Below, in pieces: positions 1 to 55,259 of a stretch of DNA of 64,000 nucleotides. Every line of letters begins with the position of its first letter. Position 1 is the first letter of the stretch. This DNA comes from Odiellus spinosus. Taxonomy: Eukaryota > Arthropoda > Arachnida > Opiliones > Phalangiidae. Position numbers and translations under genes: made by a program. The notes beneath the pieces were generated by a model, which was not told the DNA's origin, ran no database searches, and was given only the letters and a program-made list of their open reading frames with translations. The stretch covers positions 992,001-1,056,000 of the forward strand of contig CAWUCO010000167.1 in assembly GCA_963920705.1 (NCBI GenBank), in the 5' to 3' direction.

Positions 1-225
1 AAAATCAAATGTTTTTTGTCCATTTGAATAGAATAATCTTGGATTTTTAAGCGATTTTGCTTAATTTCAACCAATTTTATATTTGTCACGTTTTGGCAAT
101 TTAGACAAAACCAAAGTCATTCGAAAGAGCAATTAATGGACAATCTAAATATTAAGAGTTTTCAAAAATCCGTTGAAAAACAAGAAAAATATGGCCAATT
201 CAAGAAATCATACAATATCAAAATA
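1..225. repeat. Partial monomer at window edge
   Basis: The last ~60% of a monomer, starting inside the long spacer. It has the variant GAATAGAATAATC in place of GAATCCAATAATC. The same variant occurs again only near 8824, in the X-type monomer starting at 8640. Its GACAATCTAAATATTAAG arm 2 matches the X family. Confidence 0.85.
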
Positions 226-1755
226 GTCAAATTTCAGATTTTAAAAATTAGCTTTTTGATATTAGATGTTTTTTGAATTGACCATATTTTCCATGTTTTT
301 CCACGGATTTTCCAAAACCATTGTTTTTTCGTTAGACCAATATATGCTCTTTCGAGTGGTGTTAATTTTGTCTAAATCGCTTAAAAATCAAATGTTTTGT
401 GTCCATTTGAATCCAATAATCTTGGATTTTTAAGCGTTTTTGCTTAATTTTAACCAATTTTATATTTGTCACGTTTTGGCAATTTAGACAAAACCAAAGT
501 CATTCGAAAGGGCAATTAATGGACAGTCTAAATAATAAGAGTTTTCAAAAATCCGTTGAAAAACAAGAAAAATATGGCCAATTCAAGAAATCATACAATT
601 TCAAAAAAGTCAAATTTCAGATTTTAAATATTCGCTTTTTGATATTAGATGTTTTTTGAATTGACCATATTTTCCATGTTTTTCAACGGATTTTCCAAAA
701 CTCTTGTTTTTTAGATAGTCCAATATTTGCTCTTTCGATAGGTGTTGATTTTGTCTAAATCGCTTAAAAATCAAATGTTTTGTGTCCATTTGAATCCAAA
801 AATCTTGGATTTTTAAGCGTTTTTGCTTAATTTTAACCAATTTTATATTTGTCACGTTATGGCAATTTAGACAAAACCAAAGTCATTCGAAAGAGCAATT
901 AATGGACAGTCAAAATAATAAGAGCTTTCAAAAATCCGTTGAAAAACAAGAAAAATATGGCCAATTCAAGAAATCATACAATATCAAAATAGTCAAATTT
1001 CAGATTTTAAAAATTCCCTTTTTGATATTAAATGTTTTTTGAATTGACCATGTTTTCCATGTTTTACAACGGATTTTCCAAAACTCTTGTTTTTTAGATA
1101 GTCCAGTATTTGTTCTTTCGATAGGTGTTGATTTTGTCTAAATCGCTTAAAAATCAAATGTTTTGTGTCCATTTGAATCCAATAATCTTGGATTTTTAAG
1201 CGTTTTTGCTTAATTTTAACCAATTTTATATTTGTCACGTTTTGGCAATTTAGACAAAACCAAAGTCATTCGAAAGAGCAATTAATGGACAATCTAAATA
1301 TTAAGAGTTTTCAAAAATCCGTTGAAAAACAAGAAAAATATGGCCAATTCAAGAAATCATACAATATCAAAATAGTCAAATTTCATATTTTAAAAATTCG
1401 CTTTTTGATATTAGATGCTTTTTGAATTGACCATATTTTCCATGTTTTTCCACGGATTTTCCAAAACTTGTTTTTTAGATAGACCAATATTTGCTCTTTC
1501 GAGTGGTGTTAAATTTGTCTAAATCGCTTAAAAATCAAATGTTTTGTGTCCATTTGAATCCAATAATCTTGGATTTTTAAGCGTTTTTGCTTAATTTTAA
1601 CCAATTTTATATTTGTCACGTTTTGGCAATTTAGACAAAACCAAAGTCATTCGAAAGAGCAATTAATGGGCAGTCTAAATAATAAGAGTTTTCAAAAATG
1701 CGTTGAAAAACAAGAAAAATATGGCCAATTCAAGAAATCATACAATATCAAAATA
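226..1755. repeat. HOR tetramer X'-A-B-Y, single copy (1530 bp)
   Basis: Four monomers start at 226, 609, 992 and 1375. The first has CCATTGTTTTTTCGTTAGACC. The second has TTCAAAAAAGTC and TTTTAAATATTCGC. The third has AAATTCCCTTTTTG and TTAAATG. The fourth has GATGCTTTTTG and the 2-bp deletion giving AAAACTTG. The same four in the same order recur from 4050 with a 1530-bp period. This copy has a few private differences, such as TTAGC near 250 and GAATCCAAAAATC near 794. Confidence 0.9.
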
Positions 1756-1782
1756 GTCAAATTTCCGATTTTAAAAATTCGC

Positions 1783-1907
1783 TTTTTGATATTAGATGTT
1801 TTTTGAATTGACCATATTTTCCATGTTTTTCAACGGATTTTCCAAAACTCTTGTTTTTTATATAGTCCAATATTTGCTCTTTCGATAGGTGTTGATTTTG
1901 TCTAAAT
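1783..1907 (-). repeat. Inverted-repeat arm 1 of the monomer
   Basis: It begins TTTTTGATATTAGATG and ends TTTTGTCTAAAT. Aligned by hand against the reverse complement of arm 2, the 92-bp inner part has 16 mismatches and no gap. The outer 33-34 bp has about five mismatches and one 1-base gap, giving about 82% identity overall. Words shared exactly with the other arm include TGTTTTTCAACGGATTTT (18 bp), TTGCTCTTTCGA (12 bp) and TTTTGTCTAAAT (12 bp). Across the array this arm varies most. Type I copies read TCGATAGGTGTTGATTTTG; type II copies read TCGAGTGGTGTTAATTTTG. Confidence 0.88.
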
Positions 1908-1966
1908 CGCTTAAAAATCAAATGTTTTGTGTCCATTTGAATCCAATAATCTTGGATTTTTAAGCG
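1908..1966. repeat. 12-bp perfect inverted repeat in the long spacer
   Basis: CGCTTAAAAATC at 1908-1919 and its exact reverse complement GATTTTTAAGCG at 1955-1966 flank a 35-bp loop. The left copy directly continues arm 1. The right copy is separated from arm 2 by about 45 bp (1967-2011). The parent palindrome therefore probably reached about 137 bp per arm, with a later insertion of the 45 bp or a deletion on the opposite side. The repeat is present in most monomers. Some carry single changes, such as CGCTAAAAAATC or CGCTGAAAAATC. Confidence 0.85.
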
Positions 1967-2011
1967 TTTTTGCTTAATTTTAACCAATTTTATATTTGTC
2001 ACGTTTTGGCA

Positions 2012-2137
2012 ATTTAGACAAAACCAAAGTCATTCGAAAGAGCAATTAATGGACAATCTAAATATTAAGAGTTTTCAAAAATCCGTTGAAAAACAAGAAA
2101 AATATGGCCAATTCAAGAAATCATACAATATCAAAAT
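2012..2137 (+). repeat. Inverted-repeat arm 2 of the monomer
   Basis: It begins ATTTAGACAAAACC and ends ATACAATATCAAAAT. It is the reverse-complement partner of arm 1 and is visibly more uniform across the array. The stretch from ATTCGAAAGAGCAATTAATG through AAAATCCGTTGAAAAAC is nearly the same in most monomers. Common variants are GACAATCTAAATATTAAG, GACAGTCAAAATAATAAG, GACAGTCTTAATAATAAG and the 1-bp-shorter AGAGCATTAATGAACAGAC. The even conservation suggests recent homogenisation, constraint, or both. Confidence 0.88.
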
Positions 2138-2165
2138 AGTCAAATTTCAGATTTTAAAAATTCGC
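2138..2165. repeat. Short spacer between arm 2 and the next arm 1
   Basis: This 28-bp sequence runs from AGTCAAATTTCAG to AAATTCGC and lies between the outer ends of two inverted arms. It would form the loop of the tightest hairpin the array can make. Families differ here: CAGATTTTAAAAATTCGC, CCGATTTT, CAGATTATAAAAATTCGC, the shortened TTTTAAAATTCGC, and TTAGC in place of TTCGC. The window's single large insertion sits in an instance of this spacer. Confidence 0.8.
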
Positions 2166-4049
2166 TTTTTGATATTAGATGCTTTTTGAATTAACCATAT
2201 TTTCCATGTTTTTCCACGGATTTTCCAAAACTTGTTTTTTAGATAGACCAATATTTGCTCTTTCGAGTGGTGTTAAATTTGTCTAAATCGCTTAAAAATC
2301 AAATGTTTTGTGTCCATTTGAATCCAATAATCTTGGATTTTTAAGCGTTTTTGCTTAATTTTAACCAATTTTATATTTGTCACGTTTTGGCAATTTAGAC
2401 AAAACCAAAGTCATTCGAAAGAGCAATTAATGGACAGTCTAAATAATAAGAGTTTTCAAAAATGCGTTGAAAAACAAGAAAAATATGGCCAATTCAAGAA
2501 ATCATACAATATCAAAATAGTCAAATTTCCGATTTGAAAAATTCGCTTTTTGATATTAGATGTTTTTTGAATTGACCATATTTTCCATGTTTTTCAACGG
2601 ATTTTCCAAAACTCTTGTTTTTTATATAGTCCAATATTTGCTCTTTCGATAGGTGTTGATTTTGTCTAAATCGCTAAAAAATCAAATGTTTTGTGTCCAT
2701 TTGAATCCAATAATCTTGGATTTTTAAGCGTTTTTGCTTAATTTTAACCAATTTTATATTTGTCACGTTTTGGCAATTTAGACAAAACCAAAGTCATTCG
2801 AAAGAGCAATTAATGGACAATCTAAATATTAAGAGTTTTCAAAAATCCGTTGAAAAACAAGAAAAATATGGCCAATTCAAGAAATCATAAAATATCAAAA
2901 TAGTCAAATTTCAGATTTTAAAAATTCGCTTTTTGATATTAGATGCTTTTTGAATTGACCATATTTTCCATGTTTTTCCACGGATTTTCCAAAACTTGTT
3001 TTTTAGATAGACCAATATTTGCTCTTTCGAGTGGTGTTAAATTTGTCTAAATCGCTTAAAAATCAAATGTTTTGTGTCCATTTGAATCCAATAATCTTGG
3101 ATTTTTAAGCGTTTTTGCTTAATTTTAACCAATTTTATATTTGTCACGTTTTGGCAATTTAGACAAAACCAAAGTCATTCGAAAGAGCAATTAATGGACA
3201 GTCTAAATAATAAGAGTTTTCAAAAATGCGTTGAAAAACAAGAAAAATATGGCCAATTCAAGAAATCATACAATATCAAAATAGTCAAATTTCCGATTTT
3301 AAAAATTCGCTTTTTGATATTAGATGTTTTTTGAATTGACCATATTTTCCATGTTTTTCAACGGATTTTCCAAAACTCTTGTTTTTTATATAGTCCAATA
3401 TTTGCTCTTTCGATAGGTGTTGATTTTGTCTAAATCGCTTAAAAATCAAATGTTTTGTGTCCATTTGAATCCAATAATCTTGGATTTTTAAGCGTTTTTG
3501 CTTAATTTTAACAAATTTTATATTTGTCACGTTTTGGCAATTTAGACAAAACCAAAGTCATTCGAAAGAGCAATTAATGGACAATCTAAATATTAAGAGT
3601 TTTCAAAAATCCGTTGAAAAACAAGAAAAATATGGCCAATTCAAGAAATCATACAATATCAAAATAGTCAAATTTCAGATTTTAAAAATTCGCTTTTTGA
3701 TATTAGATGCTTTTTGAATTGACCATATTTTCCATGTTTTTCCACGGATTTTCCAAAACTCTTGTTTTTTAGATAGACCAATATTTGCTCTTTCGAGTGG
3801 TGTTAATTTTGTCTAAATCGCTTAAAAATCAAATGTTTTGTGTCCATTTGAATCCAATAATCTTGGATTTTTAAGCGTTTTTGCTTAATTTTAACCAATT
3901 TTATATTTGTCACGTTTTGGCAATTTAGACAAAACCAAAGTCATTCGAAAGAGCAATTAATGGACAGTCTAAATAATAAGAGTTTTCAAAAATGCGTTGA
4001 AAAACAAGAAAAATATGGCCAATTCAAGAAATCATACAATATCAAAATA

Positions 4050-7000
4050 GTCAAATTTCCGATTTTAAAAATTCGCTTTTTGATATTAGATGTTTTTTGA
4101 ATTGACCATATTTTCCATGTTTTTCCACGGATTTTCCAAAACCATTGTTTTTTCGTTAGACCAATATATGCTCTTTCGAGTGGTGTTAATTTTGTCTAAA
4201 TCGCTTAAAAATCAAATGTTTTGTGTCCATTTGAATCCAATAATCTTGGATTTTTAAGCGTTTTTGCTTAATTTTAACCAATTTTATATTTGTCACGTTT
4301 TGGCAATTTAGACAAAACCAAAGTCATTCGAAAGGGCAATTAATGGACAGTCTAAATAATAAGAGTTTTCAAAAATCCGTTGAAAAACAAGAAAAATATG
4401 GCCAATTCAAGAAATCATACAATTTCAAAAAAGTCAAATTTCAGATTTTAAATATTCGCTTTTTGATATTAGATGTTTTTTGAATTGACCATATTTTCCA
4501 TGTTTTTCAACGGATTTTCCAAAACTCTTGTTTTTTAGATAGTCCAATATTTGCTCTTTCGATAGGTGTTGATTTTGTCTAAATCGCTTAAAAATCAAAT
4601 GTTTTGTGTCCATTTGAATCCAATAATCTTGGATTTTTAAGCGTTTTTGCTTAATTTTAACCAATTTTATATTTGTCACGTTTTGGCAATTTAGACAAAA
4701 CCAAAGTCATTCGAAAGAGCAATTAATGGACAGTCAAAATAATAAGAGTTTTCAAAAATCCGTTGAAAAACAAGAAAAATATGGCCAATTCAAGAAATCA
4801 TACAATATCAAAATAGTCAAATTTCAGATTTTAAAAATTCCCTTTTTGATATTAAATGTTTTTTGAATTGACCATGTTTTCCATGTTTTACAACGGATTT
4901 TCCAAAACTCTTGTTTTTTAGATAGTCCAGTATTTGTTCTTTCGATAGGTGTTGATTTTGTCTAAATCGCTTAAAAATCAAATGTTTTGTGTCCATTTGA
5001 ATCCAATAATCTTGGATTTTTAAGCGTTTTTGCTTAATTTTAACCAATTTTATATTTGTCACGTTTTGGCAATTAAGACAATACCAAAGTCATTCGAAAG
5101 AGCAATTAATGGACAATCTAAATATTAAGAGTTTTCAAAAATCCGTTGAAAAACAAGAAAAATATGGCCAATTCAAGAAATCATACAATATCAAAATAGT
5201 CAAATTTCAGATTTTAAAAATTCGCTTTTTGATATTAGATGCTTTTTGAATTGACCATATTTTCCATGTTTTTCCACGGATTTTCCAAAACTTGTTTTTT
5301 AGATAGACCAATATTTGCTCTTTCGAGTGGTGTTAAATTTGTCTAAATCGCTTAAAAATCAAATGTTTTGTGTCCATTTGAATCCAATAATCTTGGATTT
5401 TTAAGCGTTTTTGCTTAATTTTAACCAATTTTATATTTGTCACGTTTTGGCAATTTAGACAAAACCAAAGTCATTCGAAAGAGCAATTAATGGACAGTCT
5501 AAATAATAAGAGTTTTCAAAAATGCGTTGAAAAACAAGAAAAATATGGCCAATTCAAGAAATCATACAATATCAAAATAGTCAAATTTCCGATTTTAAAA
5601 ATTCGCTTTTTGATATTAGATGTTTTTTGAATTGACCATATTTTCCATGTTTTTCCACGGATTTTCCAAAACCATTGTTTTTTCGTTAGACCAATATATG
5701 CTCTTTCGAGTGGTGTTAATTTTGTCTAAATCGCTTAAAAATCAAATGTTTTGTGTCCATTTGAATCCAATAATCTTGGATTTTTAAGCGTTTTTGCTTA
5801 ATTTTAACCAATTTTATATTTGTCACGTTTTGGCAATTTAGACAAAACCAAAGTCATTCGAAAGGGCAATTAATGGACAGTCTAAATAATAAGAGTTTTC
5901 AAAAATCCGTTGAAAAACAAGAAAAATATGGCCAATTCAAGAAATCATACAATTTCAAAAAAGTCAAATTTCAGATTTTAAATATTCGCTTTTTGATATT
6001 AGATGTTTTTTGAATTGACCATATTTTCCATGTTTTTCAACGGATTTTCCAAAACTCTTGTTTTTTAGATAGTCCAATATTTGCTCTTTCGATAGGTGTT
6101 GATTTTGTCTAAATCGCTTAAAAATCAAATGTTTTGTGTCCATTTGAATCCAATAATCTTGGATTTTTAAGCGTTTTTGCTTAATTTTAACCAATTTTAT
6201 ATTTGTCACGTTTTGGCAATTTAAACAAAACCAAAGTCATTCGAAAGAGCAATTAATGGACAGTCAAAATAATAAGAGTTTTCAAAAATCCGTTGAAAAA
6301 CAAGAAAAATATGGCCAATTCAAGAAATCATACAATATCAAAATAGTCAAATTTCAGATTTTAAAAATTCCCTTTTTGATATTAAATGTTTTTTGAATTG
6401 ACCATGTTTTCCATGTTTTACAACGGATTTTCCAAAACTCTTGTTTTTTAGATAGTCCAGTATTTGTTCTTTCGATAGGTGTTGATTTTGTCTAAATCGC
6501 TTAAAAATCAAATGTTTTGTGTCCATTTGAATCCAATAATCTTGGATTTTTAAGCGTTTTTGCTTAATTTTAACCAATTTTATATTTGTCACGTTTTGGC
6601 AATTAAGACAAAACCAAAGTCATTCGAAAGAGCAATTAATGGACAATCTAAATATTAAGAGTTTTCAAAAATCCGTTGAAAAACAAGAAAAATATGGCCA
6701 ATTCAAGAAATCATACAATATCAAAATAGTCAAATTTCAGATTTTAAAAATTCGCTTTTTGATATTAGATGCTTTTTGAATTGGCCATATTTTCCATGTT
6801 TTTCCACGGATTTTCCAAAACTTGTTTTTTAGATAGACCAATATTTGCTCTTTCGAGTGGTGTTAAATTTGTCTAAATCGCTTAAAAATCAAATGTTTTG
6901 TGTCCATTTGAATCCAATAATCTTGGATTTTTAAGCGTTTTTGCTTAATTTTAACCAATTTTATATTTGTCACGTTTTGGCAATTTAGACAAAACCAAAG

Positions 7001-9788
7001 TCATTCGAAAGAGCAATTAATGGACAGTCTAAATAATAAGAGTTTTCAAAAATGCGTTGAAAAACAAGAAAAATATGGCCAATTCAAGAAATCATACAAT
7101 ATCAAAATAGTCAAATTTCCGATTTTAAAAATTCGCTTTTTGATATTAGATGTTTTTTGAATTGACCATATTTTCCATGTTTTTCCACGGATTTTCCAAA
7201 ACCATTGTTTTTTCGTTAGACCAATATATGCTCTTTCGAGTGGTGTTAATTTTGTCTAAATCGCTTAAAAATCAAATGTTTTGTGTCCATTTGAATCCAA
7301 TAATCTTGGATTTTTAAGCGTTTTTGCTTAATTTTAACCAATTTTATATTTGTCACGTTTTGGCAATTTAGACAAAACCAAAGTCATTCGAAAGGGCAAT
7401 TAATGGACAGTCTAAATAATAAGAGTTTTCAAAAATCCGTTGAAAAACAAGAAAAATATGGCCAATTCAAGAAATCATACAATTTCAAAAAAGTCAAATT
7501 TCAGATTTTAAATATTCGCTTTTTGATATTAGATGTTTTTTGAATTGACCATATTTTCCATGTTTTTCAACGGATTTTCCAAAACTCTTGTTTTTTAGAT
7601 AGTCCAATATTTGCTCTTTCGATAGGTGTTGATTTTGTCTAAATCGCTTAAAAATCAAATGTTTTGTGTCCATTTGAATCCAATAATCTTGGATTTTTAA
7701 GCGTTTTTGCTTAATTTTAACCAATTTTATATTTGTCACGTTTTGGCAATTTAGACAAAACCAAAGTCATTCGAAAGAGCAATTAATGGACAGTCAAAAT
7801 AATAAGAGTTTTCAAAAATCCGTTGAAAAACAAGAAAAATATGGCCAATTCAAGAAATCATACAATATCAAAATAGTCAAATTTCAGATTTTAAAAATTC
7901 CCTTTTTGATATTAAATGTTTTTTGAATTGACCATGTTTTCCATGTTTTACAACGGATTTTCCAAAACTCTTGTTTTTTAGATAGTCCAGTATTTGTTCT
8001 TTCGATAGGTGTTGATTTTGTCTAAATCGCTTAAAAATCAAATGTTTTGTGTCCATTTGAATCCAATAATCTTGGATTTTTAAGCGTTTTTGCTTAATTT
8101 TAACCAATTTTATATTTGTCACGTTTTGGCAATTAAGACAAAACCAAAGTCATTCGAAAGAGCAATTAATGGACAATCTAAATATTAAGAGTTTTCAAAA
8201 ATCCGTTGAAAAACAAGAAAAATATGGCCAATTCAAGAAATCATACAATATCAAAATAGTCAAATTTCAGATTTTAAAAATTCGCTTTTTGATATTAGAT
8301 GCTTTTTGAATTGACCATATTTTCCATGTTTTTCCACGGATTTTCCAAAACTTGTTTTTTAGATAGACCAATATTTGCTCTTTCGAGTGGTGTTAAATTT
8401 GTCTAAATCGCTTAAAAATCAAATGTTTTGTGTCCATTTGAATCCAATAATCTTGGATTTTTAAGCGTTTTTGCTTAATTTTAACCAATTTTATATTTGT
8501 CACGTTTTGGCAATTTAGACAAAACCAAAGTCATTCGAAAGAGCAATTAATGGACAGTCTAAATAATAAGAGTTTTCAAAAATGCGTTGAAAAACCAGAA
8601 AAATATGGCCAATTCAAGAAATCATACAATATCAAAATAGTCAAATTTCCGATTTTAAAAATTCGCTTTTTGATATTAGATGTTTTTTGAATTGACCATA
8701 TTTTCCATGTTTTTCAACGGATTTTCCAAAACTCTTGTTTTTTATATAGTCCAATATTTGCTCTTTCGATAGGTGTTGATTTTGTCTAAATCGCTTAAAA
8801 ATCAAATGTTTTGTGTCCATTTGAATAGAATAATCTTGGATTTTTAAGCGTTTTTGCTTAATTTTAACCAATTTTATATTTGTCACGTTTTGGCAATTTA
8901 GACAAAACCAAAGTCATTCGAAAGGGCAATTAATGGACAGTCTAAATAATAAGAGTTTTCAAAAATCCGTTGAAAAACAAGAAAAATATGGCCAATTCAA
9001 GAAATCATACAATTTCAAAAAAGTCAAATTTCAGATTTTAAATATTCGCTTTTTGATATTAGATGTTTTTTGAATTGACCATATTTTCCATGTTTTTCAA
9101 TGGATTTTCCAAAACTCTTGTTTTTTAGATAGTCCAATATTTGCTCTTTCGATAGGTGTTGATTTTGTCTAAATCGCTTAAAAATCAAATGTTTTGTGTC
9201 CATTTGAATCCAATAATCTTGGATTTTTAAGCGTTTTTGCTTAATTTTAACCAATTTTATATTTGTCACGTTTTGGCAATTTAGACAAAACCAAAGTCAT
9301 TCGAAAGAGCAATTAATGGACAGTCAAAATAATAAGAGTTTTCAAAAATCCGTTGAAAAACAAGAAAAATATGGCCAATTCAAGAAATCATACAATATCA
9401 AAATAGTCAAATTTCAGATTTTAAAAATTCCCTTTTTGATATTAAATGTTTTTTGAATTGGCCATGTTTTCCATGTTTTACAACGGATTTTCCAAAACTC
9501 TTGTTTTTTAGATAGTCCAGTATTTGTTCTTTCGATAGGTGTTGATTTTGTCTAAATCGCTTAAAAATCAAATGTTTTGTGTCCATTTGAATCCAATAAT
9601 CTTGGATTTTTAAGCGTTTTTGCTTAATTTTAACCAATTTTATATTTGTCACGTTTTGGCAATTAAGACAAAACCAAAGTCATTCGAAAGAGCAATTAAT
9701 GGACAGTCTAAATAATAAGAGTTTTCAAAAATCCGTTGAAAAACAAGAAAAATATGGCCAATTCAAGAAATCATACAATATCAAAATA
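4050..9788. repeat. HOR tetramer X'-A-B-Y, 3.75 copies (1530 bp)
   Basis: Fifteen monomers with copies starting at 4050, 5580, 7110 and 8640. Landmarks repeat at exactly 1530 bp, for example the A monomer at 4433, 5963, 7493 and 9023. Copies differ by only a few bases, such as GACAATACC near 5078, TTTAAACAAAACC near 6222 and TTGGCCATA near 6781. Neighbouring monomers within a copy differ far more. The last copy starts with an X rather than X' monomer and lacks Y. Confidence 0.92.
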
Positions 9789-10938
9789 GTCAAATTTCAG
9801 ATTTTAAAAATTCGCTTTTTGATATTAAATGTTTTTTGAATTGACCATGTTTTCCATGTTTTACAACGGATTTTCCAAAACTCTTGTTTTTTAGATAGTC
9901 CAATATTTGTTCTTTCGATAGGTGTTGATTTTGTCTAAATCGCTTAAAAATCAAATGTTTTGTGTCCATTTCAATCCAAAATCTTGGATTTTTAAGCGTT
10001 TTTGCTTAATTTTAACCAATTTTATATTTGTCACGTTTTGGCAATTTAGACAAAACCAAAGTCATTCGAAAGAGCAATTAATGGACAGTCTAAATAATAA
10101 GAGTTTTCAAAAATCCGTTGAAAAACAAGAAAAATATGGCCAATTCAAGAAATCATACAATATCAAAATAGTCAAATTTCAGATTTTAAAAATTCGCTTT
10201 TTGATATTAAATGTTTTTTGAATTGACCATGTTTTCCATGTTTTACAACGGATTTTCCAAAACTCTTGTTTTTTAGATAGTCCAAATTTTTGTTCTTTCG
10301 ATAGGTGTTGATTTTGTCTAAATCGCTTAAAAATCAAATGTTTTGTGTCCATTTGAATCCAATAATCTTGGATTTTTAAGCGTTTTTGCTTAATTTTAAC
10401 CAATTTTATATTTGTCACGTTTTGGCAATTTAGACAAAACCAAAGTCATTCGAAAGAGCAATTAATGGACAGTCTAAATAATAAGAGTTTTCAAAAATCC
10501 GTTGAAAAACAAGAAAAATATGGCCAATTAGAGAAATCATACAATATCAAAATAGTCAAATTTCCGATTTTAAAAATTCGCTTTTTGATATTAGATGTTT
10601 TTTGAATTGACCATATTTTCAATGTTTTTCAACGGATTTTCCAAAACTCTTGTTTTTAAGATAGTCCAATATTTGTTCTTTCGATAGGTGTTGATTTTGT
10701 CTAAATCGCTTAAAAATCAAATGTATTGTGTCCATTTGAATCCAATAATCTTGGATTTTTAAGCGTTTTTGCTTAATTTTAACCAATTTTATATTTGTCA
10801 CGTTTTGGCAATTTAGACAAAACCAAAGTCATTCGAAAGAGCAATTAATGGACAATCTAAATAATAAGAGTTTTCAAAAATGCGTTGAAAAACAAGAAAA
10901 ATATGGCCAATTCAAGAAATCATACAATATCAAAATAG
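9789..10938. repeat. Transition monomers between tetramer and trimer
   Basis: Three monomers start at 9789, 10171 and 10555. The first has a CATTTCAATCCAAAATC spacer with a 1-bp loss. The second (type a) has TAGTCCAAATTTTTG. The third (type b) has TTGTTTTTAAGATAG, CCAATTAGAGAAATC and ATGTATTGTG. Types a and b recur at 13621 and 14005 and again as the first two units of the octamer. Confidence 0.82.
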
Positions 10939-13237
10939 TCAAATTTCCGATTTTAAAAATTCGCTTTTTGATATTAGATGTTTTTTGAATTGACCATATT
11001 TTCCATGTTTTTCAACGGATTTTCCAAAACTCTTGTTTTTTTAGATAGTCCAATATTTGGTCTTTCGATAGGTGTTGATTTTGTCTAAATCGCTTAAAAA
11101 TCAAATGTTTTGTGTCCATTTGAATCCAATAATCTTGGATTTTTAAGCGTTTTTGCTTAATTTTAACCAATTTTATATTTGTCACGTTTTGGCAATTTAG
11201 ACAAAACCAAAGTCATTCGAAAGAGCAATTAATGGACAATCTAAATATTAAGAGTTTTCAAAAATCCGTTGAAAAACAAGAAAAATATGGCCAATTCAAG
11301 AAATCATACAATATCAAAATAGTCAAATTTCAGATTTTAAAAATTCGCTTTTTGATATTAGATGTTTTTTGAATTGACCATATTTTCCATGTTTTTCCAC
11401 GGATTTTCCAAAACTCTTGTTTTTTAGTTAGACCAATATATGCTCTTTCGAGTGGTGTTAATTTTGTCTAAATCGCTTAAAAATCAAATGTTTTGTGTCC
11501 ATTTGAATCCAATAATCTTGGATTTTTAAGCGTTTTTGCTTAATTTTAACCAATTTTATATTTGTCACGTTTTGGCAATTTAGACAAAACCAAAGTCATT
11601 CGAAAGAGCAATTAATGGACAGTCAAAATAATAAGAGTTTTCAAAAATCCGTTGAAAAACAAGAAAAATATGGCCAATTCAAGAAATCATACAATATCAA
11701 AATAGTCAAATTTCAGATTTTAAAAATTCGCTTTTTGATATTAAATGTTTTTTGAATTGACCATGTTTTCCATGTTTTACAACGGATTTTCCAAAACTCT
11801 TGTTTTTTAGATAGTCCAGTATTTGTTCTTTCGATAGGTGTTGATTTTGTCTAAATCGCTTAAAAATCAAATGTTTTGTGTCCATTTGAATCCAATAATC
11901 TTGGATTTTTAAGCAGTTTTGCTTAATTTTAACCAATTTTATATTTGTCACGTTTTGGCAATTTAGACAAAACCAAAGTCATTCGAAAGAGCAATTAATG
12001 GACAATCTAAATAATAAGAGTTTTCAAAAATGCGTTGAAAAACAAGAAAAATATGGCCAATTCAAGAAATCATACAATATCAAAATAGTCAAATTTCCGA
12101 TTTTAAAAATTCGCTTTTTGATATTAGATGTTTTTTGAATTGACCATATTTTCCATGTTTTTCAACGGATTTTCCAAAACTCTTGTTTTTTTAGATAGTC
12201 CAATATTTGGTCTTTCGATAGGTGTTGATTTTGTCTAAATCGCTTAAAAATCAAATGTTTTGTGTCCATTTGAATCCAATAATCTTGGATTTTTAAGCGT
12301 TTTTGCTTAATTTTAACCAATTTTATATTTGTCACGTTTTGGCAATTTAGACAAAACCAAAGTCATTCGAAAGAGCAATTAATGGACAATCTAAATATTA
12401 AGAGTTTTCAAAAATCCGTTGAAAAACAAGAAAAATATGGCCAATTCAAGAAATCATACAATATCAAAATAGTCAAATTTCAGATTTTAAAAATTCGCTT
12501 TTTGATATTAGATGTTTTTTGAATTGACCATATTTTCCATGTTTTTCCACGGATTTTCCAAAACTCTTGTTTTTTAGTTAGACCAATATATGCTCTTTCG
12601 AGTGGTGTTAATTTTGTCTAAATCGCTTAAAAATCAAATGTTTTGTGTCCATTTGAATCCAATAATCTTGGATTTTTAAGCGTTTTTGCTTAATTTTAAC
12701 CAATTTTATATTTGTCACGTTTTGGCAATTTAGACAAAACCAAAGTCATTCGAAAGAGCAATTAATGGACAGTCAAAATAATAAGAGTTTTCAAAAATCC
12801 GTTGAAAAACAAGAAAAATATGGCCAATTCAAGAAATCATACAATATCAAAATAGTCAAATTTCAGATTTTAAAAATTCGCTTTTTGATATTAAATGTTT
12901 TTTGAATTGACCATGTTTTCCATGTTTTACAACGGATTTTCCAAAACTCTTGTTTTTTAGATAGTCCAGTATTTGTTCTTTCGATAGGTGTTGATTTTGT
13001 CTAAATCGCTTAAAAATCAAATGTTTTGTGTCCATTTGAATCCAATAATCTTGGATTTTTAAGCGTTTTTGCTTAATTTTAACCAATTTTATATTTGTCA
13101 CGTTTTGGCAATTTAGACAAAACCAAAGTCATTCGAAAGAGCAATTAATGGACAGTCTAAATAATAAGAGTTTTCAAAAATGCGTTGAAAAACAAGAAAA
13201 ATATGGCCAATTCAAGAAATCATACCATATCAAAATA
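10939..13237. repeat. HOR trimer P-Q-R, two copies (1150 bp)
   Basis: Copies start at 10939 and 12089. P has TTTTTTTAGATAGTCC with one extra T and TTTGGTCTTTCG. Q has AGTTAGACCAATATATGC. R has TTAAATG with AACGGATTTTCC and TAGTCCAGTATTTG. The two copies are almost identical; the first R has AAGCAGTTTTGC near 11912. P and Q recur at 14389 and 14772 without R. Confidence 0.88.
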
Positions 13238-15154
13238 GTCAAATTTCAGATTTTAAAAATTCGCTTTTTGATATTAGATGTTTTTTGAATTGACCATATT
13301 TTCCATGTTTTTCAACGGATTTTCCAAAACTCTTGTTTTTTAGATAGTCCAATATTTGTTCTTTCGATAGGTGTTGATTTTGTCTAAATCGCTTAAAAAT
13401 CAAATGTTTTGTGTCCATTTCAATCCAATAATCTTGGATTTTTAAGCGTTTTTGCTTAATTTTAACCAATTTTATATTTGTCACGTTTTGGCAATTTAGA
13501 CAAAACCAAAGTCATTCGAAAGAGCAATTAATGGACAGTCTAAATAATAAGAGTTTTCAAAAATCCGTTGAAAAACAAGAAAAATATGGCCAATTCAAGA
13601 AATCATACAATATCAAAATAGTCAAATTTCAGATTTTAAAAATTCGCTTTTTGATATTAAATGTTTTTTGAATTGACCATGTTTTCCATGTTTTACAACG
13701 GATTTTCCAAAACTCTTGTTTTTTAGATAGTCCAAATTTTTGTTCTTTCGATAGGTGTTGATTTTGTCTAAATCGCTTAAAAATCAAATGTTTTGTGTCC
13801 ATTTGAATCCAATAATCTTGGATTTTTAAGCGTTTTTGCTTAATTTTAACCAATTTTATATTTGTCACGTTTTGGCAATTTAGACAAAACCAAAGTCATT
13901 CGAAAGAGCAATTAATGGACAGTCTAAATAATAAGAGTTTTCAAAAATCCGTTGAAAAACAAGAAAAATATGGCCAATTCAAGAAATCATACAATATCAA
14001 AATAGTCAAATTTCCGATTTTAAAAATTCGCTTTTTGATATTAGATGTTTTTTGAATTGACCATATTTTCCATGTTTTTCAACGGATTTTCCAAAACTCT
14101 TGTTTTTAAGATAGTCCAATATTTGTTCTTTCGATAGGTGTTGATTTTGTCTAAATCGCTTAAAAATCAAATGTTTTGTGTCCATTTGAATCCAATAATC
14201 TTGGATTTTTAAGCGTTTTTGCTTAATTTTAACCAATTTTATATTTGTCACGTTTTGGCAATTTAGACAAAACCAAAGTCATTCGAAAGAGCAATTAATG
14301 GACAATCTAAATAATAAGAGTTTTCAAAAATGCGTTGAAAAACAAGAAAAATATGGCCAATTCAAGAAATCATACAATATCAAAATAGTCAAATTTCCGA
14401 TTTTAAAAATTCGCTTTTTGATATTAGATGTTTTTTGAATTGACCATATTTTCCATGTTTTTCAACGGATTTTCCAAAACTCTTGTTTTTTTAGATAGTC
14501 CAATATTTGGTCTTTCGATAGGTGTTGATTTTGTCTAAATCGCTTAAAAATCAAATGTTTTGTGTCCATTTGAATCCAATAATCTTGGATTTCTAAGCGT
14601 TTTTGCTTAATTTTAACCAATTTTATATTTGTCACGTTTTGGCAATTTAGACAAAACCAAAGTCATTCGAAAGAGCAATTAATGGACAATCTAAATATTA
14701 AGAGTTTTCAAAAATCCGTTGAAAAACAAGAAAAATATGGCCAATTCAAGAAATCATACAATATCAAAATAGTCAAATTTCAGATTTTAAAAATTCGCTT
14801 TTTGATATTAGATGTTTTTTGAATTGACCATATTTTCCATGTTTTTCCACGGATTTTCCAAAACTCTTGTTTTTTAGTTAGACCAATATATGCTCTTTCG
14901 AGTGGTGTTAATTTTGTCTAAATCGCTTAAAAATCAAATGTTTTGTGTCCATTTGAATCCAATAATCTTGGATTTTTAAGCGTTTTTGCTTAATTTTAAC
15001 CAATTTTATATTTGTCACGTTTTGGCAATTTAGACAAAACCAAAGTCATTCGAAAGAGCAATTAATGGACAGTCTAAATAATAAGAGTTTTCAAAAATCC
15101 GTTGAAAAACAAGAAAAATATGGCCAATTCAAGAAATCATACAATATCAAAATA
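13238..15154. repeat. Mixed monomers S-a-b-P-Q
   Basis: Five monomers start at 13238, 13621, 14005, 14389 and 14772. The a-b-P-Q run repeats the order at 10171-11704, with an offset of 3450 bp (nine monomers). The intervening trimer expansion therefore looks nested inside an older, longer period. S has CATACCATATC just upstream and CATTTCAATCC. Confidence 0.8.
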
Positions 15155-18100
15155 GTCAAATTTCAGATTTTAAAAATTCGCTTTTTGATATTAAATGTTT
15201 TTTGAATTGACCATGTTTTCCATGTTTTACAACGGATTTTCCAAAACTCTTGTTTTTTAGATAGTCCAAATTTTTGTTCTTTCGATAGGTGTTGATTTTG
15301 TCTAAATCGCTTAAAAATCAAATGTTTTGTGTCCATTTGAATCCAATAATCTTGGATTTTTAAGCGTTTTTGCTTAATTTTAACCAATTTTATATTTGTC
15401 ACGTTTTGGCAATTTAGACAAAACCAAAGTCATTCGAAAGAGCAATTAATGGACAGTCTAAATAATAAGAGTTTTCAAAAATCCGTTGAAAAACAAGAAA
15501 AATATGGCCAATTCAAGAAATCATACAATATCAAAATAGTCAAATTTCCGATTTTAAAAATTCGCTTTTTGATATTAGATGTTTTTTGAATTGACCATAT
15601 TTTCCATGTTTTTCAACGGATTTTCCAAAACTCTTGTTTTTAAGATAGTCCAATATTTGTTCTTTCGATAGGTGTTGATTTTGTCTAAATTGCTTAAAAA
15701 TCAAATGTTTTGTGTCCATTTGAATCCAATAATCTTGGATTTTTAAGCGTTTTTGCTTAATTTTAACCAATTTTATATTTGTCACGTTTTGGCAATTTAG
15801 ACAAAACCAAAGTCATTCGAAAGAGCAATTAATGGAAAATCTAAATATTAAGAGTTTTCAAAAATCGGTTGAAAAACCAAAAAAATTTGGCCAATTCAAG
15901 AAATCATACAATATCAAAATAGTCAAATTTCCGATTTTAAAAATTCGCTTTTTGATATTAGATGTTTCTTGAATTGACCATATTTTCCATGTTTTTCAAC
16001 GGATTTTCCAAAACTCTTGTTTTTAAGATAGTCCAATATTTGTTCTTTCGATAGGTGTTGATTTTGTCTAAATCGCTTAAAAATCAAATGTTTTGTGTCC
16101 ATTTGAATCCAATAATCTTGGATTTTTAAGCGTTTTTGCTTAATTTTAACCAATTTTATATTTGTCACGTTTTGGCAATTTAGACAAAACCAAAGTCATT
16201 CGAAAGAGCAATTAATGGACAATCTAAATATTAAGAGTTTTCAAAAATCCGTTGAAAAACAAGAAAAATATGGCCAATTCAAGAAATCATACAATATCAA
16301 AATAGTCAAATTTCAGATTTTAAAAATTCGCTTTTTTATATTAGATGTTTTTTGAATTGACCATATTTTCCATGTTTTTCCACGGATTTTCCAAAACTCT
16401 TGTTTTTTAGATAGACCAATATTTGCTCTTTCGAGTGGTGTTAATTTTGTCTAAATCGCTTAAAAATCAAATGTTTTGTGTCCATTTGAATCCAATAATC
16501 TTGGATTTTTCAGCGTTTTTGCTTAATTTTAAACAATTTTATATTTGTCACGTTTTGGCAATTTAGACAAAAACCAAAGTCATTCGAAAGAGCAATTAAT
16601 GGACAGTCTAAATAATAAGAGTTTTCAAAAATCCGTTGAAAAACAAGAAAAATATGGCCAATTCAAGAAATCATACAATATCAAAATAGTCAAATTTCCG
16701 ATTTTAAAAATTCGCTTTTTGATATTAGATGTTTTTTGAATTGACCATATTTTCCATGTTTTTCAACGGATTTTCCAAAACTCTTGTTTTTAAGATAGTC
16801 CAATATTTGTTCTTTCGATAGGTGTTGATTTTGTCTAAATCGCTTAAAAATCAAATGTTTTGTGTCCATTTGAATCCAATAATCTTGGATTTTTAAGCGT
16901 TTTTGCTTAATTTTAACCAATTTTATATTTGTCACGTTTTGGCAATTTAGACAAAACCAAAGTCATTCGAAAGAGCAATTAATGGACAATCTAAATATTA
17001 AGAGTTTTCAAAAATCCGTTGAAAAACAAGAAAAATATGGCCAATTCAAGAAATCATACAATATCAAAATAGTCAAATTTCAGATTTTAAAAATTCGCTT
17101 TTTGATATTAGATGTTTTTTGAATTGACCATATTTTCCATGTTTTTCAACGGATTTTCCAAAACTCTTGTTTTTAAGATAGTCCAATATTTGTTCTTTCG
17201 ATAGGTGTTGATTTTGTCTAAATCGCTTAAAAATCAAATGTTTTGTGTCCATTTGAATCCAATAATCTTGGATTTTTAAGCGTTTTTGCTTAATTTTAAC
17301 CAATTTTATATTTGTCACGTTTTGGCAATTTAGACAAAACCAAAGTCATTCGAAAGAGCAATTAATGGACAATCTAAATATTAAGTGTTTTCAAAAATCC
17401 GTTGAAAAACAAGAAAAATATGGCCAATTCAAGAAATCATACAATATCAAAATAGTCAAATTTCAGATTTTAAAAATTCGCTTTTTGATATTAGATGTTT
17501 TTTGAATTGACCATATTTTCCATGTTTTTCCACGGATTTTCCAAAACTCTTGTTTTTTAGATAGACCAATATTTGCTCTTTCGAGTGGTGTTAATTTTGT
17601 CTAAATCGCTTAAAAATCAAATGTTTTGTGTCCATTTGAATCCAATAATCTTGGATTTTTAAGCGTTTTTGCTTAATTTTAACCAATTTTATATTTGTCA
17701 CGTTTTGGCAATTTAGACAAAACCAAAGTCATTCGAAAGAGCAATTAATGGACAATCTAAATATTAAGAGTTTTCAAAAATCCGTTGAAAAACAAGAAAA
17801 ATATGGCCAATTCAAGAAATCATACAATATCAAAATAGTCAAATTTCAGATTTTAAAAATTCGCTTTTTGATATTAAATGTTTTTTGAATTGACCATGTT
17901 TTCCATGTTTTACAACGGATTTTCCAAAACTCTTGTTTTTTAGATAGTCCAATATTTGTTCTTTCGATAGGTGTTGATTTTGTCTAAATCGCTTAAAATC
18001 AAATGTTTTGTGTCCATTTGAATCCAATAATCTTGGATTTTTAAGCGTTTTTGCTTAATTTTAACCAATTTTATATTTGTCACGTTTTGGCAATTTAGAC

Positions 18101-21100
18101 AAAACCAAAGTCATTCGAAAGAGCAATTAATGGACAGTCTAAATAATAAGAGTTTTCAAAAATCCGTTGAAAAACAAGAAAAATATGGCCAATTCAAGAA
18201 ATCATACAATATCAAAATAGTCAAATTTCAGATTTTAAAAATTCGCTTTTTGATATTAAATGTTTTTTGAATTGACCATGTTTTCCATGTTTTACAACGG
18301 ATTTTCCAAAACTCTTGTTTTTTAGATAGTCCAAATTTTTGTTCTTTCGATAGGTGTTGATTTTGTCTAAATCGCTTAAAAATCAAATGTTTTGTGTCCA
18401 TTTGAATCCAATAATCTTGGATTTTTAAGCGTTTTTGCTTAATTTTAACCAATTTTATATTTGTCACGTTTTGGCAATTTAGACAAAACCAAAGTCATTC
18501 GAAAGAGCAATTAATGGACAGTCTAAATAATAAGAGTTTTCAAAAATCCGTTGAAAAACAAGAAAAATATGGCCAATTCAAGAAATCATACAATATCAAA
18601 ATAGTCAAATTTCCGATTTTAAAAATTCGCTTTTTGATATTAGATGTTTTTTGAATTGACCATATTTTCCATGTTTTTCAACGGATTTTCCAAAACTCTT
18701 GTTTTTAAGATAGTCCAATATTTGTTCTTTCGATAGGTGTTGATTTTGTCTAAATTGCTTAAAAATCAAATGTTTTGTGTCCATTTGAATCCAATAATCT
18801 TGGATTTTTAAGCGTTTTTGCTTAATTTTAACCAATTTTATATTTGTCACGTTTTGGCAATTTAGACAAAACCAAAGTCATTCGAAAGAGCAATTAATGG
18901 AAAATCTAAATATTAAGAGTTTTCAAAAATCGGTTGAAAAACCAAAAAAATTTGGCCAATTCAAGAAATCATACAATATCAAAATAGTCAAATTTCCGAT
19001 TTTAAAAATTCGCTTTTTGATATTAGATGTTTCTTGAATTGACCATATTTTCCATGTTTTTCAACGGATTTTCCAAAACTCTTGTTTTTAAGATAGTCCA
19101 ATATTTGTTCTTTCGATAGGTGTTGATTTTGTCTAAATCGCTTAAAAATCAAATGTTTTGTGTCCATTTGAATCCAATAATCTTGGATTTTTAAGCGTTT
19201 TTGCTTAATTTTAACCAATTTTATATTTGTCACGTTTTGGCAATTTAGACAAAACCAAAGTCATTCGAAAGAGCAATTAATGGACAATCTAAATATTAAG
19301 AGTTTTCAAAAATCCGTTGAAAAACAAGAAAAATATGGCCAATTCAAGAAATCATACAATTTCAAAATAGTCAAATTTCAGATTTTAAAAATTCGCTTTT
19401 TTATATTAGATGTTTTTTGAATTGACCATATTTTCCATGTTTTTCCACGGATTTTCCAAAACTCTTGTTTTTTAGATAGACCAATATTTGCTCTTTCGAG
19501 TGGTGTTAATTTTGTCTAAATCGCTTAAAAATCAAATGTTTTGTGTCCATTTGAATCCAATAATCTTGGATTTTTCAGCGTTTTTGCTTAATTTTAACCA
19601 ATTTTATATTTGTCACGTTTTGGCAATTTAGACAAAAACCAAAGTCATTCGAAAGAGCAATTAATGGACAGTCTAAATAATAAGAGTTTTCAAAAATCCG
19701 TTGAAAACAAGAAAAATATGGCCAATTCAAGAAATCATACAATATCAAAATAGTCAAATTTCCGATTTTAAAAATTCGCTTTTTGATATTAGATGTTTTT
19801 TGAATTGACCATATTTTCCATGTTTTTCAACGGATTTTCCAAAACTCTTGTTTTTAAGATAGTCCAATATTTGTTCTTTCGATAGGTGTTGATTTTGTCT
19901 AAATCGCTTAAAAATCAAATGTTTTGTGTCCATTTGAATCCAATAATCTTGGATTTTTAAGCGTTTTTGCTTAATTTTAACCAATTTTATATTTGTCACG
20001 TTTTGGCAATTTAGACAAAACCAAAGTCATTCGAAAGAGCAATTAATGGACAATCTAAATATTAAGAGTTTTCAAAAATCCGTTGAAAAACAAGAAAAAT
20101 ATGGCCAATTCAAGAAATCATACAATATCAAAATAGTCAAATTTCAGATTTTAAAAATTCGCTTTTTGATATTAGATGTTTTTTGAATTGACCATATTTT
20201 CCATGTTTTTCAACGGATTTTCCAAAACTCTTGTTTTTAAGATAGTCCAATATTTGTTCTTTCGATAGGTGTTGATTTTGTCTAAATCGCTTAAAAATCA
20301 AATGTTTTGTGTCCATTTGAATCCAATAATCTTGGATTTTTAAGCGTTTTTGCTTAATTTTAACCAATTTTATATTTGTCACGTTTTGGCAATTTAGACA
20401 AAACCAAAGTCATTCGAAAGAGCAATTAATGGACAATCTAAATATTAAGTGTTTTCAAAAATCCGTTGAAAAACAAGAAAAATATGGCCAATTCAAGAAA
20501 TCATACAATATCAAAATAGTCAAATTTCAGATTTTAAAAATTCGCTTTTTGATATTAGATGTTTTTTGAATTGACCATATTTTCCATGTTTTTCCACGGA
20601 TTTTCCAAAACTCTTGTTTTTTAGATAGACCAATATTTGCTCTTTCGAGTGGTGTTAATTTTGTCTAAATCGCTTAAAAATCAAATGTTTTGTGTCCATT
20701 TGAATCCAATAATCTTGGATTTTTAAGCGTTTTTGCTTAATTTTAACCAATTTTATATTTGTCACGTTTTGGCAATTTAGACAAAACCAAAGTCATTCGA
20801 AAGAGCAATTAATGGACAATCTAAATATTAAGAGTTTTCAAAAATCCGTTGAAAAACAAGAAAAATATGGCCAATTCAAGAAATCATACAATATCAAAAT
20901 AGTCAAATTTCAGATTTTAAAAATTCGCTTTTTGATATTAAATGTTTTTTGAATTGACCATGTTTTCCATGTTTTACAACGGATTTTCCAAAACTCTTGT
21001 TTTTTAGATAGTCCAATATTTGTTCTTTCGATAGGTGTTGATTTTGTCTAAATCGCTTAAAAATCAAATGTTTTGTGTCCATTTGAATCCAATAATCTTG

Positions 21101-24100
21101 GATTTTTAAGCGTTTTTGCTTAATTTTAACCAATTTTATATTTGTCACGTTTTGGCAATTTAGACAAAACCAAAGTCATTCGAAAGAGCAATTAATGGAC
21201 AGTCTAAATAATAAGAGTTTTCAAAAATCCGTTGAAAAACAAGAAAAATATGGCCAATTCAAGAAATCATACAATATCAAAATAGTCAAATTTCAGATTT
21301 TAAAAATTCGCTTTTTGATATTAAATGTTTTTTGAATTGACCATGTTTTCCATGTTTTACAACGGATTTTCCAAAACTCTTGTTTTTTAGATAGTCCAAA
21401 TTTTTGTTCTTTCGATAGGTGTTGATTTTGTCTAAATCGCTTAAAAATCAAATGTTTTGTGTCCATTTGAATCCAATAATCTTGGATTTTTAAGCGTTTT
21501 TGCTTAATTTTAACCAATTTTATATTTGTCACGTTTTGGCAATTTAGACAAAACCAAAGTCATTCGAAAGAGCAATTAATGGACAGTCTAAATAATAAGA
21601 GTTTTCAAAAATCCGTTGAAAAACAAGAAAAATATGGCCAATTCAAGAAATCATACAATATCAAAATAGTCAAATTTCCGATTTTAAAAATTCGCTTTTT
21701 GATATTAGATGTTTTTTGAATTGACCATATTTTCCATGTTTTTCAACGGATTTTCCAAAACTCTTGTTTTTAAGATAGTCCAATATTTGTTCTTTCGATA
21801 GGTGTTGATTTTGTCTAAATCGCTTAAAAATCAAATGTTTTGTGTCCATTTGAATCCAATAATCTTGGATTTTTAAGCGTTTTTGCTTAATTTTAACCAA
21901 TTTTATATTTGTCACGTTTTGGCAATTTAGACAAAACCAAAGTCATTCGAAAGAGCAATTAATGGACAATCTAAATATTAAGAGTTTTCAAAAATCCGTT
22001 GAAAAACCAAAAAAATTTGGCCAATTCAAGAAATCATACAATATCAAAATAGTCAAATTTCCGATTTTAAAAATTCGCTTTTTGATATTAGATATTTATT
22101 GAATTGACCATATTTTCCATGTTTTTCAACGGATTTTCCAAAACTCTTGTTTTTAAGATAGTCCAATATTTGTTCTTTCGATAGGTGTTGATTTTGTCTA
22201 AATCGCTTAAAAATCAAATGTTTTGTGTCCATTTGAATCCAATAATCTTGGATTTTTAAGCGTTTTTGCTTAATTTTAACCAATTTTATATTAGTCACGT
22301 TTTGGCAATTTAGACAAAACCAAAGTCATTCGAAAGAGCAATTAATGGACAATCTAAATATTAAGAGTTTTCAAAAATCCGTTGAAAAACAACAAAAATA
22401 TGGCCAATTCAAGAAATCATACAATATCAAAATAGTCAAATTTCAGATTTTAAAAATTCGCTTTTTTATATTAGATGTTTTTTGAATTGACCATATTTTC
22501 CATGTTTTTCCACGGATTTTCCAAAACTCTTGTTTTTTAGATAGACCAATATTTGCTCTTTCGAGTGGTGTTAATTTTGTCTAAATCGCTTAAAAATCAA
22601 ATGTTTTGTGTCCATTTGAATCCAATAATCTTGGATTTTTAAGCGTTTTTGCTTAATTTTAACCAATTTTATATTTGTCACGTTTTGGCAATTTAGACAA
22701 AACCAAAGTCATTCGAAAGAGCAATTAATGGACAGTCTAAATAATAAGAGTTTTCAAAAATCCGTTGAAAAACAAGAAAAATATGGCCAATTCAAGAAAT
22801 CATACAATATCAAAATAGTCAAATTTCCGATTTTAAAAATTCGCTTTTTGATATTAGATGTTTTTTGAATTGACCATATTTTCCATGTTTTTCAACGGAT
22901 TTTCCAAAACTCTTGTTTTTAAGATAGTCCAATATTTGTTCTTTCGATAGGTGTTGATTTTGTCTAAATCGCTTAAAAATCAAATGTTTTGTGTCCATTT
23001 GAATCCAATAATCTTGGATTTTTAAGCGTTTTTGCTTAATTTTAACCAATTTTATATTTGTCACGTTTTGGCAATTTAGACAAAACCAAAGTCATTCGAA
23101 AGAGCAATTAATGGACAGTCTAAATAATAAGAGTTTTCAAAAATCCGTTGAAAAACAAGAAAAATATGGCCAATTCAAGAAATCATACAATATCAAAATA
23201 GCCAAATTTCCGATTTTAAAAATTCGCTTTTTGATATTAGATGTTTTTTGAATTGACCATATTTTCCATGTTTTTCAACGGATTTTCCAAAACTCTTGTT
23301 TTTAAGATAGTCCAATATTTGTTCTTTCGATAGGTGTTGATTTTGTCTAAATCGCTTAAAAATCAAATGTTTTGTGTCCATTTGAATCCAATAATCTTGG
23401 ATTTTTAAGCGTTTTTGCTTAATTTTAACCAATTTTATATTTGTCACGTTTTGGCAATTTAGACAAAACCAAAGTCATTCGAAAGAGCAATTAATGGACA
23501 ATCTAAATATTAAGAGTTTTCAAAAATCCGTTGAAAAACAAGAAAAATATGGCCAATTCAAGAAATCATACAATATCAAAATAGTCAAATTTCAGATTTT
23601 AAAAATTCGCTTTTTGATATTAGATGTTTTTGAATTGACCATATTTTCCATGTTTTTCAACGGATTTTCCAAAACTCTTGTTTTTAAGATAGTCCAATAT
23701 TTGTTCTTTCGATAGGTGTTGATTTTGTCTAAATCGCTTAAAAATCAAATGTTTTGTGTCCATTTGAATCCAATAATCTTGGATTTTTAAGCGTTTTTGC
23801 TTAATTTTAACCAATTTTATATTTGTCACGTTTTGGCAATTTAGACAAAACCAAAGTCATTCGAAAGAGCAATTAATGGACAATCTAAATATTAAGAGTT
23901 TTCAAAAATCCGTTGAAAAACAAGAAAAATATGGCCAATTCAAGAAATCATACAATATCAAAATAGTCAAATTTCAGATTTTAAAAATTCGCTTTTTGAT
24001 ATTAAATGTTTTTTGAATTGACCATGTTTTCCATGTTTTACAACGGATTTTCCAAAACTCTTGTTTTTTAGATAGTTCAATATTTGTTCTTTCGATAGGT

Positions 24101-24348
24101 GTTGATTTTGTCTAAATCGCTTAAAAATCAAATGTTTTGTGTCCATTTGAATCCAATAATCTTGGATTTTTAAGCGTTTTTGCTTAATTTTAACCAATTT
24201 TATATTTGTCACGTTTTGGCAATTTAGACAAAACCAAAGTCATTCGAAAGAGCAATTAATGGACAGTCTAAATAATAAGAGTTTTCAAAAATCCGTTTAA
24301 AAACAAGAAACATATGGCCAATTCAAGAAATCATACAATATCAAAATA
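15155..24348. repeat. HOR octamer a-h, three copies (~3065 bp)
   Basis: Copies start at 15155, 18220 and 21285, exactly 3065 bp apart, and the third ends at 24348. Diagnostic landmarks: CCAAATTTTTG in a; TAAATTGCTTAAAAATC in b (copies 1 and 2); TCGGTTGAAAAACC and GATGTTTCTTG around c; CTTTTTTATATTAG in d; TTAAATG in h. Copies 1 and 2 also share TTTTTCAGCG and GACAAAAACC in d, which copy 3 lacks. In copy 3 the f and g positions (23201 and 23584) are replaced by e-like and f-like monomers, so the order is altered but the length is kept. Confidence 0.88.
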
Positions 24349-24707
24349 GTCAAATTTCAGATTTTAAAAATTAGCTTTTTGATATTAGATGTTTTTTGAA
24401 TTGACCATATTTTCCTTGTTTTTCAACGGATTTTCCAAAACTCTTGTTTTTTAGATAGTCCAATATTTGCTCTTTCGATAGGTGTGGATTTTGTCTAAAT
24501 GTACATTTGAATCCAATAATCTTGGATTTTTAAGCGTTTTTGCTTAATTTTAACCAATTTTATATTTGTCACGTTTTGGCAATTTAGACAAAACCAAAGT
24601 CATTCGAAAGAGCATTAATGAACAGACTAAATAATAACAGTTTTCAAAAATCCGTTGAAAAACAAGAAAAATATGGCCAATTCAAGAAATCATACAATAT
24701 CAAAATA
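24349..24707. repeat. Shortened monomer with 23-bp deletion
   Basis: At 24500/24501 GTCTAAAT is joined directly to GTACATTTG. Compared with the close relative at 26240, this removes 23 bp: the left CGCTTAAAAATC stem of the spacer hairpin plus the next 11 bp. The monomer is about 359 bp. It is the largest simple deletion I noticed in the satellite. Confidence 0.85.
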
Positions 24708-34900: not shown

Positions 34901-35041
34901 GTCACGTTTTGGCAATTTAGACAAAACCAAAGTCATTCGAAAGAGCAATTAATGGACAGTCTAAATAATAAGAGTTTTCAAAAATCCATTTAAAAACAAG
35001 AAAAATATGGCCAATTCAAGAAATCATACAATATCAAAATA
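28918..35041. repeat. Alternating HOR modules T-U-V-W-Z and T-U-V (3062-bp super-period)
   Basis: T monomers start at 28918, 30832, 31980 and 33894, spaced 1914, 1148 and 1914 bp. They are marked by the preceding ATATGTTCAATTC, AGTAAAATTTCAG and TTGATAATGTTTTACATG. U has TTCACATTTTAAATATTCGC, V has TTGTTTTTAGATAG and CATTTCAATCC, W has AATTAGC with GACCTTATTTTCC, and Z has CCAAATTTTAGTTC with TCTTGAATTTTTAAG. The order is TUVWZ-TUV-TUVWZ-TUV. Private changes such as TCGACAGGTG are shared by the 30832 and 33894 T copies, which shows the 3062-bp unit was copied as a whole. Confidence 0.88.
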
Positions 35042-54565: not shown

Positions 54566-54572
54566 TACCCCC

Positions 54573-54848: not shown

Positions 54849-54871
54849 CATTTTTCCACTTTTTTCCCCCC

Positions 54872-55243: not shown

Positions 55244-55259
55244 ACATACCTATCAGGTC

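Follow-up and report, generated by a model that had tools for sequence, protein, structure and literature searches.

Long dyads within satellite monomers have been called "not so common", and a case of 80 bp is counted among the rare examples (PMC13081366, sections consulted). The satellites that these sections describe or cite include the major satellite of Tribolium brevicornis, with a 1061-bp monomer made of two ~470-bp inversely oriented segments (cited in PMC13081366), TmSat2 of Tribolium madens, with a 704-bp monomer and ~300-bp imperfect inverted arms of ~110-bp subunits (PMC13081366), and a Trichogramma brassicae satellite of 385 bp with 80-bp inverted repeats (cited in PMC13081366). 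More insects with predicted satellite dyads are listed, together with the HJURP/CENP-A hypothesis, in the consulted part of a review (PMC8122249). Intramonomer dyads are cited in favor of a contribution of non-B DNA to the definition of centromeres (PMC13081366, same sections).

The stretch of DNA analyzed here, referred to as the window, is 64 kb long and consists almost entirely of a satellite, the sole break being a foldback-like insert of ~694 bp. It forms a long tandem array of near-identical monomers with a period of 383 bp (142.6 copies before and 22.8 copies after the insert, 96% matches in Tandem Repeats Finder), and every scored monomer contains inverted segments of at least ~80 bp (arms of 127 and 128 bp, 163 of 163 scored monomers, 76–83% complementarity). 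The 383-bp satellite belongs in kind with the already described type with long intramonomer dyads as a further example, the grouping being made by descriptions. As described in the sections consulted, the T. brevicornis satellite likewise has a monomer with two long inverted segments, but these measure ~470 bp in a unit of 1061 bp, compared with ~126 bp in 383 bp here. The T. brassicae satellite, by its description there, is close in unit length (385 and 383 bp) and also carries an inverted repeat inside the monomer, with arms of 80 bp instead of ~126 bp. TmSat2 is described with imperfect inverted arms in every monomer and a predicted whole-monomer hairpin; its ~300-bp arms, however, are built from ~110-bp subunits, and its arrays switch orientation, giving rise to macro-dyads. 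No such array-level change of orientation was found within the 64-kb window, where a 21-bp anchor with up to 4 mismatches was located 165 times in forward and never in reverse orientation.

Cutting of the array yielded 164 monomers, of which the insert-bearing one was left out and 163 were aligned and scored. Identity figures at offsets and to the consensus were taken from a cut of 158 monomers, the consensus of which is identical to that from the 163. The features of the array and of one monomer in consensus phase are listed in Table 1; one unit sums as ~126 + 12 + 35 + 12 + 45 + 126 + ~27 bp.

Table 1. Positions in the window of the satellite array, of the parts of one described monomer and of the insert
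Feature	Position	Strand	Basis and remarks
383-bp satellite array	1..54565	+	~142.6 copies, single orientation; Tandem Repeats Finder, anchor search
Array resumed past insert	55260..64000	+	~22.8 copies; Tandem Repeats Finder
Described monomer, 383 bp, in consensus phase	1759..2141	+	Monomer alignment
Arm 1	1783..1907	+	Consensus 26-152 = 1784-1910; local alignment
Perfect 12-bp inverted repeat, left half, adjoining arm 1	1908..1919	+	Exact match
Long-spacer centre, 35 bp	1920..1954	.	By subtraction
Perfect 12-bp inverted repeat, right half	1955..1966	-	Exact match
One-sided 45 bp, without partner	1967..2011	.	By subtraction
Arm 2, inverted copy of arm 1	2012..2137	-	Consensus 251-378 = 2009-2136; local alignment
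Short spacer, arm 2 to next arm 1	2137..2166	.	Consensus 379-383 + 1-25; short stem, 10-nt loop in predicted fold
Insert, inverted arms of ~15-bp repeats, AGTC on both sides	54566..55259	.	Alignment, inspection of flanks

The initial annotation had described the monomer as an internal inverted duplication with arms matching at about 82% of roughly 126 positions. Local alignment of arm 1 with the reverse complement of arm 2 gave 103 matches, 21 mismatches and 1 gap in 125 columns, with a score of 138, while 300 pairs of dinucleotide-shuffled arms reached a mean of 22.1 and a maximum of 47. When the consensus was compared with its own reverse complement, the alignment scored 245, both arms being passed twice, and 300 shuffles remained at or below 61. 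In the consensus of 163 monomers, 106 of the 127 aligned arm positions are complementary pairs. The inverted structure was found in all scored monomers, with a complementarity of 0.764–0.827 (mean 0.805, gaps set aside). The arm alignment, the consensus and the individual monomers thus support the inverted duplication, the anti-diagonal being longer than 100 bp and the identity higher than in shuffled sequence. Two smaller elements were confirmed as well, namely the 45 extra bp on one side and the perfect 12-bp inverted repeat in the long spacer, which is exact (CGCTTAAAAATC at 1908, reverse complement at 1955) with 35 bp between its halves. The 18-bp identical word is also present (TGTTTTTCAACGGATTTT at 1824, reverse complement at 2078), with the qualification that it varies across the array: exact occurrences in the window number 54 for the arm-1 form and 126 for the arm-2 form. 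Since a longest identical run of 18 fits random placement of the mismatches (5000 permutations, P = 0.56), the word itself is nothing special, and its reading as a conserved protein site was rejected on account of both its variation and its length.

The monomers showed a mean identity of 97.9% to the 383-bp consensus and of 96.6% to their neighbors, and monomer-monomer identity averaged 0.9625–0.9715 at all 24 offsets tried (1–20, 30, 50, 80, and 120). Local higher-order repeats were observed as runs of 10, 9, 6, and 5 monomers with at least 99% identity at offsets of 8, 4, 6, and 5, respectively (starting at 15158, 3670, 35045, and 39641), which supports amplification by whole units; the array gives the impression of a mosaic formed by amplification over short distances. 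One monomer among the 163 is shorter than 375 bp; this 359-bp copy (24352–24710) lacks 23 bp from near the end of arm 1, which leaves the perfect 12-bp inverted repeat with a single half. Short stretches with a 17-bp period (unit TTTTTGAATTGATAATGT) occur at 28945–28982, 30859–30896, 32007–32044, and 33921–33958, at spacings of 1914, 1148, and 1914 bp, corresponding to ~5, 3, and 5 monomers.

Exchange between the arms would be expressed at the 21 mismatched pairs. Here, 14 of 27 distinct variant types were directed towards pairing (the mutation spectrum predicts 11.3), and two adjacent mismatched sites were healed together in a single case in 163 monomers, so that inter-arm conversion was not detected at these pairs. 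The mismatched sites held 253 variant cells, of which 122 restored pairing, 98 of these through three common variants. With gaps counted as unpaired, each of the 21 consensus mismatches was unpaired in at least 66% of the 163 monomers, and 17 of them in at least 98%. As the mismatches are largely array-wide, the duplication predates the amplification of the array, and the unit of homogenization is the full 383 bp; the identity of ~96–97% between monomers against ~80% between arms likewise points to the dimer as the homogenized unit. The claim that the array consists of alternating plus and minus half-units therefore holds as its probable history but not as a description of the repeat, which is a head-to-tail array of 383 bp, given the 96.6% identity of neighbors, the ~80% identity of arms and the lack of detectable inter-arm exchange.

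These findings are best explained, with a probability of roughly 0.7, by a eukaryotic satellite whose amplifying unit goes back to an old inverted duplication of a ~190-bp ancestor, followed by divergence of the arms. The ancestral unit would have been copied once in inverted orientation, for example through a template switch at a replication fork or through fold-back repair there, resulting in a head-to-head dimer from what was presumably a single founding event. The 383-bp dimer, and not the half-unit, would then have spread and been homogenized through unequal exchange as well as through higher-order amplification on a local scale. One half probably gained or lost 45 bp, and independent divergence of the arms would have brought their consensus identity down to ~83%. 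The symmetry would accordingly be mainly a relic of its origin. Imperfect hairpins or cruciforms about two centers per unit could, by calculation, still form, but no upkeep of this capacity is seen in the variation of the array.

The layout of the monomer, with ~126-bp arms around a ~100-bp core and a short junction, also has a MITE-like shape, as long arms flank a core in MITEs with long terminal repeats. The unit might hence descend from a mobile element with palindromic structure (a MITE or a foldback element) that was amplified in tandem, with the arms as its long terminal inverted repeats. However, the junction showed no plain target duplication, and by eye the alignment is not at its best towards the outer arm ends; we consider this origin unlikely. 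A foldback element as a source of satellite building blocks is described for Tetris of Drosophila virilis (PMC4079207, part consulted). Tetris/TIR-220 resembles the present satellite in its inverted symmetry and tandem amplification and also provides a model for the insert at 54566–55259, but the satellite described in that part of PMC4079207 arose from ~220-bp tandem repeats within terminal repeats and not from a whole palindromic unit.

When the consensus was folded as a single strand with DNA parameters, energies of -90.8 and -93.1 kcal/mol were obtained about the two symmetry centers, compared with means of -33.7 and -33.6 kcal/mol (sd 4.0) for 100 dinucleotide shuffles each, a difference in stability of ~14 standard deviations. 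At the first center, in the short spacer, the predicted stem extends inwards to a 10-nt loop, while the predicted fold at the second center, in the long spacer, is capped by the 12-bp repeat and carries the 45 bp as a one-sided bulge. With these energies against about -34 kcal/mol, hairpins are possible, the calculation applying to a lone strand and not to duplex DNA in the cell. It had been proposed in the initial annotation, and marked there as inference, that the symmetry could seed cruciforms and affect replication, recombination or chromatin. The energies permit the hairpins; the paired sites, however, were neither significantly less variable nor covarying.

The stable folds would suit a dyad under selection, in which a hairpin or cruciform in each unit aids the loading of the centromeric histone or positions paired nucleosomes at the (peri)centromere, and satellite dyads have been hypothesized to aid the deposition of centromere proteins (PMC8122249, PMC13081366, sections consulted). 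An A/T-dinucleotide period of 10.95 bp over the monomer, which was reached in only 1 of 300 dinucleotide shuffles and in none of 300 symmetric controls with an inverted copy, is likewise in favor of such a function; periodicity was tried on several stretches, and the values derive from dinucleotide shuffles and these controls. The period was not significant in the single arms (reached by 186 and 96 of 300 shuffles, respectively) and of borderline significance in the long spacer (11 of 300), and it therefore does not come from the arms. Furthermore, no CENP-B-box core is found in the consensus, the best match on either strand having 2 of 9 fixed bases wrong. In view of these results and of the variation described below, a selected dyad appears improbable.

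The 163 scorable units allow the idea of a centromeric role for non-B DNA to be tested on variation. Variants reached a mean frequency of 0.0215 over the 212 paired sites; the corresponding values were 0.0370 for the 42 mismatched sites of the arms and 0.0122 for the remaining 129 sites. The means of the arm classes lean as constraint would and the spacers in the opposite direction, neither difference being significant (paired versus mismatched arm sites, p = 0.47; paired versus other sites, p = 0.14; Mann-Whitney rank tests, 163 monomers). More than 5% variability was observed at 18 of 127 sites in arm 1 and at 9 of 128 in arm 2 (Fisher p = 0.07, Mann-Whitney p = 0.34). Of the variant cells at paired positions, 735 of 739 break the pair and 4 keep it, compared with 3.83 expected by independence, all four being copies of a single double variant, at consensus 73/330, carried by four monomers. 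Changes on both sides were found in 5 cells against 6.5 expected, and the variability of partner sites was uncorrelated (r = -0.05). Compensatory changes between the arms were thus no more frequent than by independence (4 versus 3.83), a comparison of weak power. The variant cells are shared by descent and are not independent events, and the variation is recent, which gives low power against weak selection. There is no clear sign of an upkeep of cruciforms or hairpins in the variation of the array, and weak or ancient constraint is possible; for arms that are 83% alike with no visible inter-arm conversion, weak constraint and age look the same in a single array. A structural role is possible, though unsupported by the variation here. 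On the time scale of one array, the finding that pairing is not visibly protected favors a relic of origin over a maintained structure.

The 10.95-bp period and a unit of about two nucleosome repeats are suggestive only. They could be combined in a mirrored dinucleosomal module, in which two facing ~190-bp halves, A/T phasing across the unit and hairpin-prone centers at a fixed place per nucleosome pair would label the array for a chromosomal role, for instance in centromere identity, a proposal that we regard as very doubtful. Satellite arrays are difficult to assemble, but an inversion arising from misassembled chimeric or fold-back reads is hardly credible, since it is found within each of the 163 scored monomers, which bear variants of their own, and fold-back reads would be expected to give near-identical arms and not largely the same 21 mismatches throughout the array.

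An origin from a structured RNA gene was rejected, the window containing neither a tRNA nor an Rfam match at the gathering score, and so was a coding role, as only 3 open reading frames of at least 90 amino acids are present in 64 kb and the longest (134 amino acids) runs into the repeats of the insert. Two monomers gave no blastn match to phage and plasmid sequences, and exact satellite patterns were found neither in the genome contigs searched (one 23-bp pattern) nor in viral contigs. The 18-bp word occurs in 6 viral contigs, which was taken for chance, as consensus matches there do not exceed 37 bp; these longest matches, in two loci, have 89% identity and an E-value of 1.2e-7 in a database of only the 6 word-selected loci. 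Six monomer words and four insert words did not occur in the literature text searched, and the literature search returned no paper combining "383 bp", "satellite DNA", "monomer" and "insect".

The two sides of the ~694-bp insert are mutually inverted, with a score of 91 compared with at most 29 in 200 mononucleotide shuffles and 16 in direct orientation, and its arms are built from repeats of ~15 bp (CATTTCGCCCAATTT type) that have diverged. The AGTC of the satellite is present on both sides (54562–54565 and 55260–55263), resembling a 4-bp target duplication, and the insert looks like a small foldback-type element. The exact joined-flank form of the insertion site had 0 matches in other monomers, and an exact search of viral contigs with insert patterns found nothing. 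In the middle of the insert, at 54872–54898, lies an (AACCT)5 stretch, whose complementary strand reads as the TTAGG telomere repeat of the insect type and gives a hint of an arthropod origin; two-unit (AACCT) words are absent elsewhere in the window. The insert sits at the symmetry center of the short spacer, within ~10 bp of the predicted hairpin loop, a single event that may be due to chance.
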